This document shows positions 7,094-39,656 of a stretch of DNA of 64,000 nt, piece by piece. This DNA is from Methylomonas albis (lineage in GTDB: Bacteria; Pseudomonadota; Gammaproteobacteria; Methylococcales; Methylomonadaceae). The translations under genes were made by a program, and so were the position numbers. The first letter of the stretch is position 1; each line of letters opens with the position of its first letter. Below the pieces are notes generated by a model. The model did not search any database. It was not told the origin of the DNA and worked only from the letters and a program-made list of their open reading frames with translations. The DNA is taken from NCBI RefSeq assembly GCF_014850955.1, contig NZ_JACXSS010000001.1:4588001-4652000 (forward strand), given 5' to 3'.

Positions 7094-7425
7094 TTGTGTC
7101 GCTGTCGCGACGGTTTAATTTAATGTCGGTTCGCGGACCGACGACCGCGATACTTTCGCTACGAAAACCATCCCTGGTTTTCGCCCTTCGGGCCAGCCTA
7201 TCGGCTGTTCAAACTCGCTCCAGACGAATTTGTCGCTTTTGCCGAGGGTTTTCGGAAGGGCTATCCATAGCCCACCGAAAACGAGCGGCATCCCTGCCAC
7301 TCCCCTATCGGGCTAATCACTCGATACATCCATGTATCTCGCCCTTCGGGTGCTACGCATGCAAATCGGCAATCCTGCCGATTTGTCTCGCCAAAAGCTC
7401 CGATGCTCGGGGCGGAATAACGGGA
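7094..7425 (+). repeat. Structured hairpin repeat, copy A (degenerate)
   Basis: Starts TTGTGTCGCTGTCGCGACGG (GTCGC-TGTC-GCGAC hairpin), has a decayed middle, then the central stems GTTTTCGGAAGGGCTA / TAGCCCACCGAAAAC and GAGCGGCA / TGCCACTC. It ends with GCTCCGATGCTCGG and a decayed CGGGAG. It is in inverted orientation to copy B at 9001-9334. Between them lie the two AT-rich genes at 7598 and 8204. No convincing reading frame is conserved among copies. Confidence 0.8.
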
Positions 7426-7481: not shown

Positions 7482-7551
7482 GTAGGACGTGCCGACGCGA
7501 GGAGGCGCATCTATCGCGAACGATGCACTTCACTTCCGTTCAGCATCCTAC
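7482..7551. repeat. 70-bp imperfect palindromic repeat
   Basis: Begins GTAGGACGTGCCGACGCG and ends TTCAGCATCCTAC. The two ends pair with each other, and an inner GCGCATC/GATGCAC pairs too, giving one long hairpin. A TATAAT-like box (7476-7481) directly precedes it. It looks like a dispersed intergenic hairpin repeat sitting at the inner end of copy A; copies B and D carry a different GTAGGG-type hairpin at their inner ends. Confidence 0.6.
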
Positions 7552-7597
7552 GGCCCTTTATCCTGATTCATTTCTGCATTTGTATTTGTATTTGTAT

Positions 7598-8164
7598 ATG
7601 GCGTCCAAATTAGTCCCCTGTAATCTTTGTAAAAAAGAAATTTCGAGTAGCGCAACTGTTTGTCCAAATTGCGGAGAAACGAACCCAACCAAACGGCCCC
7701 AGAAAGTTGGCTGGTTGGGTAAGATTTGTGGTTTGATAGTTTGGGGTGCTGTGGCAGTATCGATCCTGTTAGGATTTTTCGGAACACCTGATCGAACATC
7801 AAACCAAGCTACATCAGAAACCTCTGCTCTTACTGAAGAACAAATTTACAATCAATCGTGTAGCCAAGATTGGCGTAAGTGCAAAAGTAATGCTGACATT
7901 GTTAATTTGAACACCTCCGTAAATAGTGCGATGAAAACAGCTTGTAAGCGAGCTGCTGAAAAAAACAGCAAATTCGAAATCGATTGGAACTGGCTGGCAT
8001 TTGGAACGTTCTACGAAAATGATTCTGATATTAAAACTGGTGAAATATTGATTCAAGATAACGACTCGAAATATGGCAATATGTTTGGTGGTAAAGTCAA
8101 AGTAACTACAAAGTGTCTGTTTAATCTTAAAACTATGACTGTCGAGCAAGTTTCAGCCGAATAA
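7598..8164 (+). CDS. Zinc-ribbon membrane-anchored protein of unknown function
   Basis: About 188 residues. The N-terminal zinc ribbon (CNLCKKEIS...CPNCGE, two CxxC knuckles) is followed by one hydrophobic helix (GLIVWGAVAVSILLGFFG), then a soluble ~130-residue domain with several cysteines. No family name is recognised for the C-terminal part. ATG at 7598 is chosen because the ribbon begins right after it; the 25 residues upstream come from a TTTGTA-repeat stretch and look non-coding. The gene is AT-rich compared with its surroundings and lies in the segment bracketed by structured repeats A and B, suggesting horizontal origin. Confidence 0.65.
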   Translation: MASKLVPCNLCKKEISSSATVCPNCGETNPTKRPQKVGWLGKICGLIVWGAVAVSILLGFFGTPDRTSNQATSETSALTEEQIYNQSCSQDWRKCKSNADIVNLNTSVNSAMKTACKRAAEKNSKFEIDWNWLAFGTFYENDSDIKTGEILIQDNDSKYGNMFGGKVKVTTKCLFNLKTMTVEQVSAE

Positions 8165-8203
8165 TTCATAAACAAATTCTGATAAGGTAGGGATGCTAAT
8201 ATT

Positions 8204-8929
8204 ATGTCAGACGCTTACTGTCTAAAGTTCAGGGCGATCAATAAATATCTTATTGAATCAATGGTCAACCCAAGTATTTATTTCGCCAATCCAGATCAAT
8301 TGAATGACCCGTTTGATTGCAGAATGGATGTCAATAAAATTATTTATAGTGCGGTACTTGGGGAAAAGGATCAAAGGCAGAAGGATTTTTTACTATCTTT
8401 TTTAGAGAATAAAAGTTTTGGTGAAAACTGGAAGTCCCAATTCGAGAATATTGGTGTGTTTTCAGTGTCCATGTGTAGCGAACTCACTAAAAAACAACCG
8501 CTTATGTGGTCTCATTATGCTGATGAACATCGAGGGTTATGTGTAACATATAGTTTTTCAGGGGATTGCTTTACTAATGCCGAGTTACTTGCCAAAGGAA
8601 TGGTCAAGTATTGTGCAGCACCCGATATTTCAGGGGTGTTTAGTAGTAACTTTGATCCTGTAAAGATTACACAAGCTCTACTTTATATTTTTTTATTTAA
8701 TAAAAGTAGTGAATGGGGATATGAGTCAGAGTTTAGATTGCTTAAATATTCGTCTGGAACATTTCCTATTAATCCAAGTTCAATACATGAAATTTGTTTT
8801 GGGTTACGAACTCCAAAATCAGACATTGATTTTATTAAAAAAATAGCATCTGATTATTGTGGTTGTACTTCTTTCTATCAAATGCAGCATGATGATAGTG
8901 CTATGGGGTTTAAAGCGGTAAAGCTTTAA
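8204..8929 (+). CDS. DUF2971-family protein
   Basis: 241 residues matching the DUF2971 pattern: an N-terminal YFANPDQLNDPFDCRMD region, the central SMCSELTKKQPLMWSHYADEHRGLCVTY segment, and the C-terminal EICFGLR. The biochemical function of the family is unknown; members are scattered in accessory regions. The gene is clearly more AT-rich than flanking housekeeping genes. It follows the zinc-ribbon gene by 39 bp, with a weak GATAAGGTAGGGAT upstream, so the two may be cotranscribed. A hairpin terminator follows. Confidence 0.8.
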   Translation: MSDAYCLKFRAINKYLIESMVNPSIYFANPDQLNDPFDCRMDVNKIIYSAVLGEKDQRQKDFLLSFLENKSFGENWKSQFENIGVFSVSMCSELTKKQPLMWSHYADEHRGLCVTYSFSGDCFTNAELLAKGMVKYCAAPDISGVFSSNFDPVKITQALLYIFLFNKSSEWGYESEFRLLKYSSGTFPINPSSIHEICFGLRTPKSDIDFIKKIASDYCGCTSFYQMQHDDSAMGFKAVKL

Positions 8930-9000: not shown

Positions 9001-9334
9001 CGCAATTCGTAGGGCGTCAATAGGCGTAGCCGTATTGCGCCGCATGTCGGCCTTCATTCATTTGGCGCATTGAAGAGTATCCCGTATGCCGCGCCGAGCA
9101 CCGGAGGTTTTGGCGAGAACAGCCCGATAGGGGAGCGGCAGGGAGGCCGCTCGTTTTCGGAGGGCTAAGGATAGCCCTTCCGAAAACCCTCGCCAAAACC
9201 TTCGGAGCGCAGGACCAAAGCGGCATCCGGGTGGCTTTTCTTTTGGTGACTTTTCTTTGGCCAAACAAAGAAAAGTTACTCGGCTGTCGGGCCGAGACCC
9301 GACTCCAAAACAACCCGTCGCGCCAGCGACACAA
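9001..9334 (-). repeat. Structured hairpin repeat, copy B, plus an outer GTAGGGC repeat
   Basis: Read on the minus strand the core (9334-9081) shows, in order: GTCGC-TGGC-GCGAC; GTCGGG-TCTCGG-CCCGAC; CTTTTCTTTG paired with CAAAGAAAAG; CCCGGATGCCGC pairing with the terminal GCGGCATACGGG; an inner CGAAGGTTTTGGCGAG/CTCGCCAAAACCTCCG stem; and two nested hairpins GTTTTCGGAAGGGCTA/TAGCCCTCCGAAAAC and GAGCGGC/GCCGCTC. At 9009-9070 it is joined to a second repeat family (GTAGGGCGTCAATAGGCG...), also present at copy D. Confidence 0.85.
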
Positions 9335-26412: not shown

Positions 26413-27456
26413 ATGAGTCAACAAAGAAAAGCAGTGGCGCTGATTTCCGGCGGCCTGGATTCCATGCTGGCCAGCCAGGCCATTATGGAGCAAGGCATCC
26501 ACGTCGAGGGCATCAACTTTTTCACCGGCTTTTGCGTGGAAGGCCACACCCACGCCATTCGCAAACAAGACACCGATAAGGTCAAGCGTAACAACTCGTT
26601 ATGGGTTGCCGAGCAGCTGGGCATCAAACTGCACATCATCGATATTATCGAAGAATACAAGCAAGTACTGCTCAACCCCAAGCACGGCTACGGCGCCAAC
26701 CTGAACCCCTGCCTGGACTGCAAGATTTTCATGGTGAATAAGGCCAAACAGTGGATGCAGGAAAACGGCTTCGATTTCATCATCACCGGCGAAGTGGTCG
26801 GCCAACGGCCCATGTCGCAGCGCAAGCAAACCATGCCCATCGTCGCCGCCGAATCCGGAGCCGACGATTTACTGGTCAGACCCTTATCCGCTCAAAACTT
26901 ACCCGCCACCTTACCGGAACGCGAAGGCTGGATCAGCCGCGACAAGCTGTTCGGCTTCAGCGGCCGCTCCCGCAAACCGCAAATGGAACTGGCAAGGGAA
27001 TACGGCTTTACCGACTACGCGCAACCAGCCGGCGGCTGCTGCTTTTTAACCGACGAAGCTTATTCGTTAAAACTGGTGGATTTGTGGAAAGCGCGCGGCG
27101 AACGCGATTACGATCTGGACGACGTGATGCTGTTGAAAGTGGGCAGACATATTCGCCCCAAACCGCATTTCAAAGTCATCGTGGCTCGCGAGGACGGCGA
27201 AGCCCGCTTCATGAGTGGCTATAAAAAAGTGTTTGTCAGCATGAACTGCGCCAGCCATCGCGGCCCGCTGGCCTTGATCGACGGCACGCCTAGCGAAGAC
27301 GATCTGCTGCAGGCGGCGCAGATTACCGCGCGCTACGGCCAAGGCCGCGAAGCCGAGCAGGTGGAAGTGACCATTCGTGATCGCGAAGGCAATGAGCGCA
27401 ATGTGTTCGTTAAGCCCTTGCTCGCCGACGAAATTCCGGAGGCTTGGTTCGTATGA
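26413..27456 (+). CDS. ThiI/MnmA-like PP-loop sulfurtransferase with NFACT-R-like C terminus
   Basis: 347 residues. The N-terminal PP-loop ATP-pyrophosphatase has SGGLDSMLASQAI and FDFIITGEVVGQRPMSQ, with CLDCKIFM and GGCCF cysteines that could relay sulfur. The C-terminal ~120 residues (RHIRPKPHFKVIVAREDGEARFM) resemble the NFACT-R/DUF814 domain. Databases often call such proteins tRNA thiouridine methyltransferases, but the architecture suggests a ThiI-like tRNA or metabolite thiolation enzyme. It overlaps the TusA-like gene by 4 bp, a natural sulfur donor. Function is inferred. Confidence 0.75.
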   Translation: MSQQRKAVALISGGLDSMLASQAIMEQGIHVEGINFFTGFCVEGHTHAIRKQDTDKVKRNNSLWVAEQLGIKLHIIDIIEEYKQVLLNPKHGYGANLNPCLDCKIFMVNKAKQWMQENGFDFIITGEVVGQRPMSQRKQTMPIVAAESGADDLLVRPLSAQNLPATLPEREGWISRDKLFGFSGRSRKPQMELAREYGFTDYAQPAGGCCFLTDEAYSLKLVDLWKARGERDYDLDDVMLLKVGRHIRPKPHFKVIVAREDGEARFMSGYKKVFVSMNCASHRGPLALIDGTPSEDDLLQAAQITARYGQGREAEQVEVTIRDREGNERNVFVKPLLADEIPEAWFV

Positions 27457-27677
27457 GTGAACATGTTTTGAACGCCCGCCGCCTGCTCTGCCCGCTGCCG
27501 GTGATCCGCACTCAGGACAAGGTCAAAACCCTGCAAGCCGGCGACGTGTTGACGGTGGAATGTACCGATCCCGGTGTGATGCAGGATATTCCGGCTTGGT
27601 GTCGGATTAATGGGCATCGGGTTTTGGATACACGAGTTGTCGATGGTGAGTATGTGATTGTGTTGGAAGTGGGCTAA
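27453..27677 (+). CDS. TusA/YedF-family sulfurtransferase
   Basis: 74 residues of the SirA/TusA fold. The conserved persulfide Cys lies in RRLLCPLPVIRTQDKVKTL (CPxP motif, about residue 13), followed by GDVLTVECTDPGVMQDIPAWC. Start ATG 27453 overlaps the stop of the upstream PP-loop gene, implying a two-gene sulfur-relay unit. Structured repeat C begins 6 bp after the stop codon. Confidence 0.88.
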   Translation: MSEHVLNARRLLCPLPVIRTQDKVKTLQAGDVLTVECTDPGVMQDIPAWCRINGHRVLDTRVVDGEYVIVLEVG

Positions 27678-27682
27678 GTTGG

Positions 27683-27934
27683 TTGTGTCGCTATCGCGAC
27701 GGATTAATTTGATGTCGGGTCTCGGCCCGACAGCCGAGATACTTTCTTTTGCATCGCCAAAAGAAAGTATCCAAAGAAAAGGCGACCCGGATGCCGCTTT
27801 GATCCTGCGCGCCGAAGCTTTCGACGGGGATCGACAGAAGGGGCTTCCTGCCCCTCTGTCGATGTGCGGCATCCCTGCCGCACCCCTACGGGCTATTCCC
27901 GCCGAAAGCTCCGGTGCTCGGCGCGGCATACGGG
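27683..27934 (+). repeat. Structured hairpin repeat, copy C
   Basis: Reads GTCGC-TATC-GCGAC, GTCGGG-TCTCGG-CCCGAC, CTTTCTTTTG/CAAAAGAAAG, then CCCGGATGCCGC that pairs with the terminal GCGGCATACGGG. Inside are the CGAAGCTTTCGACGGG/CCCGCCGAAAGCTCCG stem and hairpins ATCGACAGAAGGGGC/GCCCCTCTGTCGAT and GTGCGGCA/TGCCGCAC. It is inverted relative to copy D at 29246-29639, and between them lie two AT-rich genes. Confidence 0.9.
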
Positions 27935-28021
27935 AGGAAAAACCGTCGTGACAGAAATGAACGATTTATTTGCGAACACTGGACGATATGCAGAAACCAT
28001 TAAATACTCGTTAGGCGCAAT

Positions 28022-28510
28022 ATGACTTGTTACACAGAATGCGATTGTTGCTGTAGCGCGGAAGGGCACGAATTCGATGAGATAATCTCCGAGGAAACTC
28101 TAATCGAAGTGTCAGCGAAAGATTTAGCGCATTCGAATTTAGGCTGGTTCTGTGGTTTCGATGATCTAAAAAATGGGGCGTGGCCGATTTCAGAAAATGA
28201 TGGCGTCTATTTGCTTTGGGAGAAAAACGATTATTGTCCCAAGCATGATCGATTTCATGCAAGGGCGCTTTATGTAGGTAAAGGTTTCGTGAAAAAGCGA
28301 ATCTTCGATCACGCCAAAAACAAGGGATTCACCGAAGATAATATCGTCTATTTTACATTTATTGACATCGCCAACAGAAAGGCCAAGTACGTAGAACAGC
28401 TCTTGCTCGACCTTTATGATTTTCCGTTGAACAAAGCAGAGAATCTTGGAACAGGTAGGTTTTGCGGTTACATCACGCAGAGTGAAGCCGATCTTGGCTT
28501 TTCCAATTAG
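28022..28510 (+). CDS. GIY-YIG-like nuclease-domain protein with Cys-rich N terminus
   Basis: 162 residues. The segment NDGVYLLWEK...ARALYVGKGFVKKRIFDHAKN carries GIY-YIG core elements (GVYLL, LYVGKG, Arg in KRI). KYVEQLLLDLYDFPLNK supplies the expected Glu and Asn/Lys. A cluster of cysteines (CYTECDCCCSAEG) sits at the N terminus. GTTAGGC lies 6 bp before the ATG, as in integron cassettes. AT-rich relative to neighbours and bracketed by repeats C and D, so probably acquired. Target unknown. Confidence 0.6.
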   Translation: MTCYTECDCCCSAEGHEFDEIISEETLIEVSAKDLAHSNLGWFCGFDDLKNGAWPISENDGVYLLWEKNDYCPKHDRFHARALYVGKGFVKKRIFDHAKNKGFTEDNIVYFTFIDIANRKAKYVEQLLLDLYDFPLNKAENLGTGRFCGYITQSEADLGFSN

Positions 28511-28515
28511 AAAGT

Positions 28516-28672
28516 GCCTAACAAGGCCATGAGATCAGATGCAATAGACTCCGCATCGCTTGCGCATGGCCACCCGAAGCCCGGTAGATCACGTTGCCGC
28601 GATAGCGCTTATGTAACAATCAAAGTCCTATAGGGTACGTATCACGTACCTTATGATTAACAAAAGTTAGAG
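28516..28672 (+). other. Possible degenerate integron attC-like site
   Basis: GCCTAAC (28516, 5 bp after the stop) fits the R'' consensus RYYYAAC. It is followed by an extended hairpin: GGCCATG (28525) with CATGGCC (28565), inside it GATGC (28538) with GCATC (28553). GTTAGAG at 28666 is one base off the R' consensus GTTRRRY and lies 6 bp before the next gene. The region between hairpin and R' does not pair well, so the call is tentative. Confidence 0.35.
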
Positions 28673-28678
28673 CAATAT

Positions 28679-29236
28679 ATGTTTAGTCGGAAATTAGTTG
28701 TATCGCTTTCAGTGTTATTTACGGTTAGCCCAACAGCTTATCCATGCAAACGCCCAGATTTCGAAGCATTGATTCATATGAATCAACATGAATTAAGGCA
28801 AGATGGGTGCGTCAAAGAGCATGTAAAACTACATTTAAAGAATCAACCCATTAAGGTAATTAAAATTGCGGAAAAACTAAAGCGCAAAGGGCTCCTTGAC
28901 GGGCCTTCTCTTGAAGTAGAAGCTTCAGCTTTTTATGATCTTGGGTTGTATAGCGACGCATTAAAGGCACATCTATTGTCAAAAACAACACCTGTGCAAT
29001 GTAAAACATTCTCGCCCTGTGTTTGGAAATATTGGGATGGTGATGATCGCTGGATAAACTCTTTTTATTACCAAGCCAATGGTGATATACGCAAGGCGGA
29101 AGAAGAATTGAAAGCCGGTGATTTTGATTTTTTTAAATCATGCCAAAGGGATGATCCGCGTATTGAAACGGCTAATTATTGTTCCGAGGTACGTAATCGG
29201 TTAGTTAATTCTATTAAATCTAGTTTTAGCAAGTAA
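28679..29236 (+). CDS. Exported protein of unknown function
   Basis: 185 residues. The N-terminal signal peptide (KLVVSLSVLFTVSPTAYP, with a Cys right after) could make it a periplasmic protein or perhaps a lipoprotein. The mature part is helical and charged, with paired cysteines (CKTFSPCVWK, CQRDDPR, YCSEVR) and the segments DLGLYSDALKAHLL and GDIRKAEEELKAGDF suggesting TPR/Sel1-like helical repeats. No family recognised. AT-rich cargo gene between repeats C and D. Confidence 0.6.
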   Translation: MFSRKLVVSLSVLFTVSPTAYPCKRPDFEALIHMNQHELRQDGCVKEHVKLHLKNQPIKVIKIAEKLKRKGLLDGPSLEVEASAFYDLGLYSDALKAHLLSKTTPVQCKTFSPCVWKYWDGDDRWINSFYYQANGDIRKAEEELKAGDFDFFKSCQRDDPRIETANYCSEVRNRLVNSIKSSFSK

Positions 29237-29245
29237 CGCGGTAAG

Positions 29246-29639
29246 GCGCAATCTGTAGGGCATCAATAGGCGTAGCCGTATTGCGCCGCATGTTGGTCTT
29301 CGATTATTCGGTGCATTACGCTATCGCTAATGCACCCTACGGCGGATGAAGAAAGCACTTTGGCTTTTGATCCTGGGACGGTTTTGTCCCGTATGCCGCG
29401 CCGAGCACCGGAGCTTTTGAGCGGAATAGCCCGTAGGGGCGATGCAGGGATGCATCGCGTTGCCGAAGGGGCAGGAAGCCCCTTTCGGCAACCCCGTTCA
29501 AAAGCTCCGGAGCGCAGGGAATAAGCGGCATCCGGGTGTCTTTTCTTTTGGGTACTTTTCTTTGGACAAGCAAAGAAAAGTACCCCGGCTGTCGGGCCGA
29601 GACCCGACTTTAAAATTACCGTCGCGACAGCGACACAAC
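29246..29639 (-). repeat. Structured hairpin repeat, copy D, plus an outer GTAGGGC repeat
   Basis: On the minus strand (core 29639-29388): GTCGC-TGTC-GCGAC; GTCGGG-TCTCGG-CCCGAC; CTTTTCTTTG/CAAAGAAAAG; CCCGGATGCCGC with terminal GCGGCATACGGG; CCGGAGCTTTTGAACGG with CCGCTCAAAAGCTCCGG; hairpins GTTGCCGAAAGGGGC/GCCCCTTCGGCAAC and GCGATGCA/TGCATCGC. At its inner end (29255-29340) lies the second family, with a TAGGCGTAGCC segment and a GGTGCATTA/TAATGCACC hairpin. Confidence 0.9.
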
Positions 29640-29671: not shown

Positions 29672-30886
29672 ATGGCAGTTGGAGACACCTCATTCCCTGA
29701 AATGCATGCCGTTCCCGGCATCAAACTCGGCACCTGCAATGCCGGCATCAAGCAAACCGTCCGCGACGATATTTTAGTCATCGAAATGGCGGACGGTGGC
29801 AGCTGCGCAGCAGTATTTACCCAAAATGCCTTTTGTGCGGCACCGGTGCATATCGCCAAAGCGCATTTGTCGCAAAACCCGCGCTGGTTGCTGGTCAATT
29901 CCGGCAACGCCAATGCCGGCACCGGCAAGCAAGGCCTGCAAGATGCCTTCGCCTGCTGCGCCAATCTGGCCGGCGAAGTCGAGGCCTTGGCACAACAAGT
30001 GTTGCCGTTCTCGACCGGCGTCATCGGTGAACCGCTTCCCGTGGAAAAACTCACGACAGCGTTGCCGAGCGCCGTCGCGAATTTGGCCGAAGCGCATTGG
30101 GATAAAGCCGCACGCGCCATCATGACGACAGACACCTTCCCCAAGGGCGCATCGGCAGTGATCCATATAGCCGGCCATCCGGTGACGATTACCGGGATTT
30201 CCAAGGGCGCCGGCATGATCCAACCCAATATGGCCACCATGCTGGGTTTTGTGGCTACCGATGCCAGTATCGAACAATCTTTGTTACAACAATGTTTGTC
30301 TGCGGCAGCGGAAAAATCTTTTAATCGCATTACCGTGGACGGTGATACCTCCACTAACGACGCCTGCGTGGTATTGGCCAGCGGGAACAGCGCAGCCCCG
30401 GAAATTTTGGCCGACTCCACAGAGTATGCGACCTTCGCCGAGGCCGTGATGTCGGTTTGCAAACGCCTGGCAGAACTGATTATTCGCGACGGCGAAGGCG
30501 CTACCAAACTGATGCGCATAGTGGTCGAACAAGCGCGCGACAGCGCCGAAGCGGTTCAGGTTGCTAAAACCATCGCCCATTCGCCCCTGGTTAAAACCGC
30601 CTTCTTCGCCAGCGACCCCAACTGGGGCCGGATTCTGGCCGCTGTCGGACGTGCGGGAGTCGAAAACATGGATCTGGATAAAATTGAAATTTATCTAGGC
30701 ACCGTGTGCATCGTCGAAAACGGCGGCAGAGCTCGCTCGTACACCGAGCAAGACGGCCAACGCGTGATGAATCAGGAGGAAATAGTTGTCACCGTCAGAC
30801 TAGGTCGCGGCGTGATTAGCGAGGAAGTGCTGACTTGCGACTTTTCTTACGATTACGTAAAAATCAACGCGGAATACCGTACCTAA
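29672..30886 (+). CDS. argJ: Bifunctional ornithine acetyltransferase/N-acetylglutamate synthase
   Basis: Recycles acetyl groups in arginine synthesis by moving acetyl from acetylornithine to glutamate, and may also use acetyl-CoA. 404 residues, autoprocessed at the conserved KGAGMIQPNMATML, where Thr becomes the nucleophile. Other family blocks: VNSGNANAGTGKQG, FSTGVIGEPLP, SDPNWGRILAAVG. It lies directly after repeat D and 13 bp upstream of the nudix-thiE fusion gene. Confidence 0.95.
   Translation: MAVGDTSFPEMHAVPGIKLGTCNAGIKQTVRDDILVIEMADGGSCAAVFTQNAFCAAPVHIAKAHLSQNPRWLLVNSGNANAGTGKQGLQDAFACCANLAGEVEALAQQVLPFSTGVIGEPLPVEKLTTALPSAVANLAEAHWDKAARAIMTTDTFPKGASAVIHIAGHPVTITGISKGAGMIQPNMATMLGFVATDASIEQSLLQQCLSAAAEKSFNRITVDGDTSTNDACVVLASGNSAAPEILADSTEYATFAEAVMSVCKRLAELIIRDGEGATKLMRIVVEQARDSAEAVQVAKTIAHSPLVKTAFFASDPNWGRILAAVGRAGVENMDLDKIEIYLGTVCIVENGGRARSYTEQDGQRVMNQEEIVVTVRLGRGVISEEVLTCDFSYDYVKINAEYRT

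Positions 30887-37647: not shown

Positions 37648-39656
<2,009 letters not shown>

Follow-up and report, generated by a model that had tools for sequence, protein, structure and literature searches.

The window, the whole 64,000-nucleotide stretch of Methylomonas albis DNA that was analysed, includes two short groups of genes, each enclosed by a pair of hairpin-rich repeats that are called arms here. Unit C-D is located between an ORF that we take to encode a TusA-like protein (27454-27677, plus strand) and another that presumably encodes ArgJ (29672-30886, plus strand). Its left end is arm C (27683-27936, plus strand, with the tip GTGTCGC at 27685) and its right end is arm D (29387-29638, minus strand, a member of the 82-arm alignment described below). 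The enclosed cargo span, 28022-29236, includes two plus-strand ORFs of 162 (28022-28510) and 185 amino acids (28679-29236), both without a Pfam match. An attI-like motif is present inside arm C, on its cargo side, at 27985-28016 (plus strand, local score 22 of 33). The heptamer GCCTAAC that follows the first ORF (28516-28522, plus strand) was singled out by eye as a candidate attC 5′ core; the half-site test had no match in C-D. Unit A-B starts with arm A (7094-7425, plus strand, matched by nhmmer in the pieces 7096-7322 and 7369-7424) and ends with arm B (9079-9334, minus strand, a profile match). The cargo span between them, 7523-8929, has two plus-strand ORFs, one of 213 amino acids (7523-8164) with a zinc-ribbon match below the Pfam cut-off and one of 241 amino acids (8204-8929) that reaches the curated Pfam cut-off for DUF2971. 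Next to arms B and D, toward the cargo (9001-9078 and 29246-29386), there are REP-like hairpins, GTAGGGCGTCAATAGGCG... and GGTGCATTACGC..., that are not part of the arm, and several further REP types were located within units. A TPP riboswitch was also found in the window at 39549-39656 on the minus strand.

Arm family and conserved fold

The first-pass annotation had described a repeat present in four copies, and re-inspection of the window sequence indicated that the hairpin repeats and their compensatory changes are both real. These four are members of a family of arms about 255 bp long. In the covered parts of the own Methylomonas genome (G000), a profile built from 39 aligned copies detected 44 arms spanning 140 or more model positions, about eleven times the number first recognised, and a BLAST search of the same genome with copy C as query gave at least 43 matches when 40 of 71 first-look candidates were scored. 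With few exceptions an arm begins with GTGTCGCNNNNGCGAC and finishes at or near GCGGCATACGGGAG. The tip, GTGTCGC, points outward from the cargo, and arms taken at random are about 82% alike. Copies B and D exist as annotated, but both are on the minus strand and the arms proper are confined to the intervals given above. The order of elements, which had been considered fixed in all four copies, is not kept in copy A. This variant lacks the central CTTTTCTTTG/CAAAGAAAAG hairpin and the left closing strand CCCGGATGCCGC; a different hairpin module replaces the missing stretch, a further one is inserted after model position ~216, and similar modules are found again in arms elsewhere. Several arms have alternative or additional hairpin modules at these two positions (window 7094-7425, L049 from 5902, L160 and L166), so that the number of hairpins varies.

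Arm matches were found in 22 of 25 genomes of the same genus (the own genome included), in five of 16 further genomes of the order Methylococcales and, in a class-level sample where at most two candidates were scored per genome, in at least 39 of 369 genomes (again with the own genome). Neither the plasmid nor the phage collection, where records close to the own genome may be absent, had any arm match.

The fold was analysed with an alignment of 82 arms drawn from 108 full-length arms. RNAalifold predicted 71 pairs, 29 of them changed on both sides. When a pseudoknot was added by hand the number of pairs rose to 75 and 98.7% of the 6141 cells were paired, these cells being counts over related sequences rather than independent events; the structure as counted has 13 helices. 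Two-sided changes occurred at 31 of the 75 pairs as compared to 5-10 in six slid controls, and the covariation score was 0.233 as compared to 0.026-0.058 in the slid controls. None of 500 shuffles reached four of the five measures, and the fifth, further pair types, was unremarkable (197 of 500). The pseudoknot is formed by the loop of the second hairpin and the strand just downstream. In arm C it is of the H type, GTCGGG[TCTCGG]CCCGAC, and takes up 27714-27738 of the plus strand, where the loop CTCGG pairs with CCGAG at 27734-27738. Both strands covary in the 82 arms: the combinations are CTCGG/CCGAG in 49, CGCGG/CCGCG in 21, CTCGC/GCGAG in five and other variants in six, and the pairing is outright broken in a single arm (CGCGG/CCGAG). 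These results bear out the proposal that the stems covary between copies and support the maintenance of a single-stranded structure by compensatory change, a picture to which the pseudoknot is an addition. In place of the closing stem proposed at the same time, RNAalifold preferred a shifted alternative; counted alone, the proposed stem comprises 842 Watson-Crick, 3 G.T, 27 A.C and 27 other cells. Descent of the repeats from a protein-coding relic, considered in the same annotation, was rejected because the stems change on both sides and the arms are outside the cargo genes.

The mismatches in the stems are asymmetric. On the strand read inward there are 68 A.C cells, 19 of which come from one column pair, as compared to 11 G.T cells (29 versus 11 distinct positions, P = 0.006); A.C on this strand is a G.U wobble on the strand read outward. 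The folding z-score of copy C was -8.2 for the plus strand and -10.5 for the minus strand. No Rfam family covers the Methylomonas arm, in agreement with the initial statement that no named family was known for it, and the window has no match to RF02421 (Bp1_684). One of 12 loci of other genera that were scanned, a Paraburkholderia right arm (L230), matches this family on its outward strand with 52.2 bits (cut-off 44), and a second Paraburkholderia locus has no match. RF02421 is described as a Burkholderia sRNA candidate that was put to RT-PCR (PMC3521395). Taken together, the A.C excess, the better outward-strand fold of copy C and the strand of the lone Rfam match point tentatively to the outward strand as the one that folds, a signal that a mutation bias could mimic.

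Convergent pairing and insertion sites

In the covered stretches of the own genome, neighbouring arms within 2.5 kb of each other were in the orientation +- in 15 cases, ++ in one, -- in one and -+ in none, and 15 of 17 convergent has P = 7e-8 against an expectation of 1/4. A total of 17 convergent pairs take in 34 of the 44 arms, with 153-5124 bases between partners; for the other 10, the nearest 6 kb hold no convergent partner. Most of the repeats are halves of convergent pairs, each pair enclosing a cargo cassette. Four units in a row were observed within ~20 kb (L046/L047, G000:C1:1366583-1386887), forming a cluster of slots.

A scan of genome contigs with one hairpin gave at least 120 stretches, and 80 of them were made into loci. 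Among the matches listed, 12 two-arm loci were recognised by pattern, 10 of them +- and two -+; eight of 10 were convergent in other genera and two of two in Methylomonas. A similar layout, consisting of an upstream hairpin, a central hairpin, an A-rich strand and nested hairpins, was recognised by eye in Dyella, Xanthomonas, Lysobacter and Methylobacter, and comparable layouts are present in Xanthomonadaceae and Burkholderiales. With 40 of ~170 candidates scored in each case, one Paraburkholderia genome had at least 12 convergent pairs of 0.63-0.73 kb, which leave scant room for cargo, and one Dyella genome had no convergent pair among the 41 places listed. The central hairpin and its neighbouring A-rich/T-rich half were also seen in records that carry labels from beyond the Proteobacteria, namely Selenomonadales (L225, L240) and Clostridia (L228).

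The insertion site of unit C-D was inspected in 30 of the 31 genomes with ArgJ. At this one site, where filled and empty states were compared, tusA and argJ were adjacent in 17 genomes, a convergent pair with cargo was inserted in 12, and in the remaining one an arm forms the end of the contig. Among the 12 filled sites there are 10 types of cargo: G000, G041 and G016 share cargo genes and the other nine do not. Seven more sites, chosen from the own genome, were traced by their flanks into up to seven relatives. The eight sites gave 49 site-genome entries, of which 44 are intact pairs with 37 cargo types, a count that excludes the five entries lacking an intact pair and ignores the transposase RAYT178 (see below) and one insertion-sequence transposase. 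In most cases the host flanks meet the tips or come within ~155 bp of them, the exceptions being U10 of G024 at its right end (~1.2 kb) and parts of U12 in G006, G011 and G023. The left flank of A-B was found in none of five relatives, and in G024 the A-B site has no arm and keeps an apparent remnant of an arm tip. Both arms are retained whichever way the cargo is oriented.

Similar cargo was also found at different sites. U2 of G000 and X4 of G024 occupy different sites in two species, and they share the 3′ part of an OLD-like cargo gene (92.7% identity) and the right arm (96.5%), with an arm identity of 0.94-1.0 up to the tip and no alignment past it. A 313-residue cargo protein of U3 in G000 has counterparts of 94% identity at site U14 in both G023 and G041. 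In the comparison with G023, the left arm is 0.9-1.0 identical in its inner part and 0.82-0.86 toward the tip, a drop that fits a crossover within the arm better than movement of the whole unit. At U12, G011 and G023 have cargo that is 97% identical and arms that are 94% and 89% identical, and the nearest outside DNA cannot be aligned. At least one move, then, carried an arm along with the cargo, clearly so in U2/X4 and not in U3/U14. The two arms of one unit are barely more alike than random arms (0.84 versus 0.82), unlike the ends of a recent transposon. A higher likeness (0.87), located in the inner half, was seen when arms on one side of one site were compared between genomes. From these identities and the cases of movement we infer that the arms largely stay and the cargo changes between them. 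Visual inspection of 17 units revealed no target-site duplication.

Cargo genes

Eight of 30 cargo proteins reach a curated Pfam cut-off: Mrr, DUF3644, FRG, AAA_15/AAA_21 (two proteins), HNH, DUF1152 and reverse transcriptase. PADLOC was run on 72 cargo proteins, and among the 25 of 204 families listed, which include GajA, OLD, AriA and candidate families, no family has more than two matches. Most of the cargo is orphan, and a minority seems to be of defence type, namely a retron-like reverse transcriptase, an OLD/GajA-like ATPase, Mrr and DUF3644; the term retron is our assumption, made from the reverse transcriptase and the neighbouring gene. Unit U11 (L051:6567-12193) has the retron-like reverse transcriptase and a partner gene, plus two transposase-like genes that are presumably of the IS110 and IS256 types. 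In unit U2 (L041:7333-10423) the OLD/GajA-like gene is split by a gene for a 409-amino-acid transposase, which we take to be IS256-like, and G024 has an uninterrupted relative (L135). The passenger genes between the inverted ends are accompanied by no transposase common to the units, and where individual units contain transposase genes, these are part of the cargo. No transposase or recombinase was constant across units, and no autonomous insertion sequence sharing the arm ends was recognised in the units covered.

Integron-like features

At the C-D site all 12 filled genomes retain the ~85 bases that follow the left arm on its cargo side. Judged by eye, the similarity breaks off close to a GTTA/GTTG core in 11 genomes, and the cargo of different genomes starts near the attI-like motif. 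At site U16 the motif is found ~160 bases inside the arm in four of five genomes. A 33-base attI-like consensus had 13 hits in 1.37 Mb (both strands), seven of them at C-D and four at U16; of the other two, one belongs to U14 of G002 and one (L045) is not within an arm pair. Each of 20 shuffled motifs had none. The own genome encodes the integrase IntI (G000:C1:5329909-5330862, 439 bits, cut-off 265), and its C-D and U16 motifs are more than 600 kb from intI, i.e., the attI-like sites are not beside the integrase gene. IntI was over the cut-off in 14 of 37 genomes, a smaller share than that of genomes with arms (22 of 25). In G007 the motif is located upstream of IntI, where it scores 22 as compared to a best of 12 in 40 shuffles (a control run on the G007 integron region), and an apparent cassette array follows by eye. 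The other 13 integrase loci, that of G000 included and some of them ending at contig ends, score 9-12, like their own shuffles. No arms were found near integrase genes in the 19 loci scanned. As for attC, a few half-sites and one good candidate (CD.G011) were recognised by eye, and half-sites were not enriched (10 in 22 kb versus 27 in 55 kb). A strict attC scan gave no hit even on five integrase regions and was too strict to act as a positive control.

Discussion

The comparisons described above suggest that the arms are probably the structured ends of transposase-less cassettes that depend on an enzyme acting in trans and serve as slots for cargo swapping. Sequence comparison shows the rule of pairing, one locus that is filled in some genomes and empty in others, sites whose cargo differs between genomes, similar cargo shared by separate sites, and one arm that moved, up to its tip, together with its cargo. 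Two convergent arms with their tips outward would end a small mobile unit, such as A-B or C-D, with 0.15-5 kb of cargo. A trans-acting enzyme may recognise the single-stranded arm folded into its hairpins and pseudoknot, which would explain why pairing is kept rather than sequence. The two arms would bound a slot where the cargo swaps, perhaps through the attI-like integron site at C-D and U16 and perhaps by recombination in the arms elsewhere. More speculatively, and with low confidence in the whole, the arms could represent a new cassette-exchange system of beta- and gammaproteobacteria in which a trans recombinase would recognise pairs of pseudoknotted arms folded as single strands, with many dispersed slots in each genome. 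Some Methylomonas slots would then have captured an attI, becoming a scattered, integrase-free integron platform for orphan and defence-type genes.

Several of these observations could have other explanations. Arms that are ~82% alike everywhere could be dispersed homology tracts, with two crossovers in the arms replacing the cargo and no dedicated enzyme, and the U3/U14 pair, in which the outer left arm is at background and the inner part and cargo are at ~0.9-1.0, looks like a product of this process. However, the U2/X4 arm stays at 0.94-1.0 to its tip, and arms of the same site and side are most alike in the inner half, the reverse of what arm crossovers predict. As this explanation also leaves the first insertion at new sites and the conserved pseudoknot unaccounted for, we consider it doubtful that homologous recombination acted by itself. 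An equally doubtful alternative is a cis-acting RNA, i.e., the arm would be a structured 3′ end or sRNA read outward that stabilises, terminates or insulates the cargo transcripts, and mobility would be incidental. The excess of A.C over G.T on the inward strand, equivalent to G.U on the outward one, the lower folding z-score of copy C on its outward strand and the sRNA family match on the outward strand of the Paraburkholderia right arm agree with it. Nevertheless, both arms are kept though the cargo faces either way, strand-biased mutation would yield an equal asymmetry, and a single column pair accounts for 19 of the 68 A.C cells. The compensatory changes themselves could be mutational, produced by template-switch correction between the arms of a palindrome and not by selection on the fold. 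The two-sided changes, with their very few G.T intermediates, speak for such correction, but it seems highly improbable as the source of the pattern because loops, element order, lengths and pseudoknot are kept over 82 arms and a similar layout is found in other orders.

The mobilising enzyme could be sought among the genes that accompany the arms. RAYT178 is a Y1 transposase of 178 amino acids (G000:C1:141668-142204 and loci L186-L203), and if the arms were its ends the units would be REP/TIRtron-like. It is located 94-303 bp inside the left arm in 12 of 18 loci, which have five unrelated left-flank groups, and two further loci adjoin an apparent bare arm tip by eye. On the other hand, an inverted REP pair of its own (TTCCCACGCG...CGCGTGGGAA) is seen by eye beside the gene in all 18 loci, also where there are no arms; other RAYT loci have arms in one of 20 cases; and arms are numerous in G024 and G012, where no RAYT178 exceeds 60% identity. 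We consider RAYT178 an improbable arm enzyme and, since all 18 loci carry its own REP pair, take it to be frequent cargo. It is more plausible, though we still lean against it, that the cargo consists of integron cassettes put by IntI into attI-like sites inside the arms. This is consistent with the attI-like motif at C-D, U16 and few other places, the GTTA or GTTG at the end of the kept C-D segment, the IntI over the curated cut-off in the own genome, and the motif and cassette-like array next to the G007 integrase. Yet the motif is beside one of 14 integrase loci, some of which end at contig ends, and not beside that of G000; it is missing in most genomes at six of the eight sites; attC half-sites are not enriched; and IntI is found in 14 of 37 genomes while arms are found in 22 of 25.

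The preferred reading, that of transposase-less cassettes with structured ends, ties widespread and little-described structured repeats to the turnover of gene content, with many chromosomal slots whose ends stay constant while their genes, mostly uncharacterised, change. The arm model permits automatic slot finding and, as a consequence, the uncharacterised cargo, some of it defence-like, can be mined. The covarying fold is a concrete substrate for an enzyme hunt.

In the portion of the open-licence PMC full-text literature that was covered, no account of these arms or of arm pairs with exchangeable cargo was recognised. We place the units with transposase-less cassettes and not with REPINs or integrons because defining features of both were looked for and not found. 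According to PMC3733652, RAYT genes can be flanked by long inverted repeats (TIRtrons), some of which are repeated families, and these seem to be the nearest system in concept. The arms resemble REPINs and the REPs of RAYTs in being inverted pairs of structured repeats with tagged tips outward and many copies. They differ in size (~255 bp as compared to a REP hairpin of 20-40 bp), in the tip (GTGTCGC instead of a GTAG/CGTC tag) and in bounding gene cargo; moreover, the RAYT near the arms has different REPs, and no cognate RAYT flanked by the arm repeat was found. RF02421 (Bp1_684) is described as a single sRNA, has 113 positions and matches the outward strand of one arm.

Integrons and CALINs also have a fixed point where small genes, most of them orphan, are exchanged, and the attI-like motif at two sites is a further likeness. 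Unlike them, the sites described here are dispersed, with one or few genes bounded by arms, an integrase that is elsewhere or absent, and attC as a candidate only. Tn7-like transposons with defence cargo similarly have varied cargo between conserved ends, whereas the arm-bounded units are without transposition genes. Mobile insertion cassettes or MITE-flanked passenger genes, such as MIC231, have inverted ends around passengers. The arms are distinct from such ends in being ~255-bp multi-hairpin structures with a pseudoknot and compensatory change; in the units covered, no cognate IS was recognised and no target duplication was evident by eye. With mobile insertion cassettes they share the inverted ends flanking passenger genes, the lack of an own transposase and the dispersed copies.
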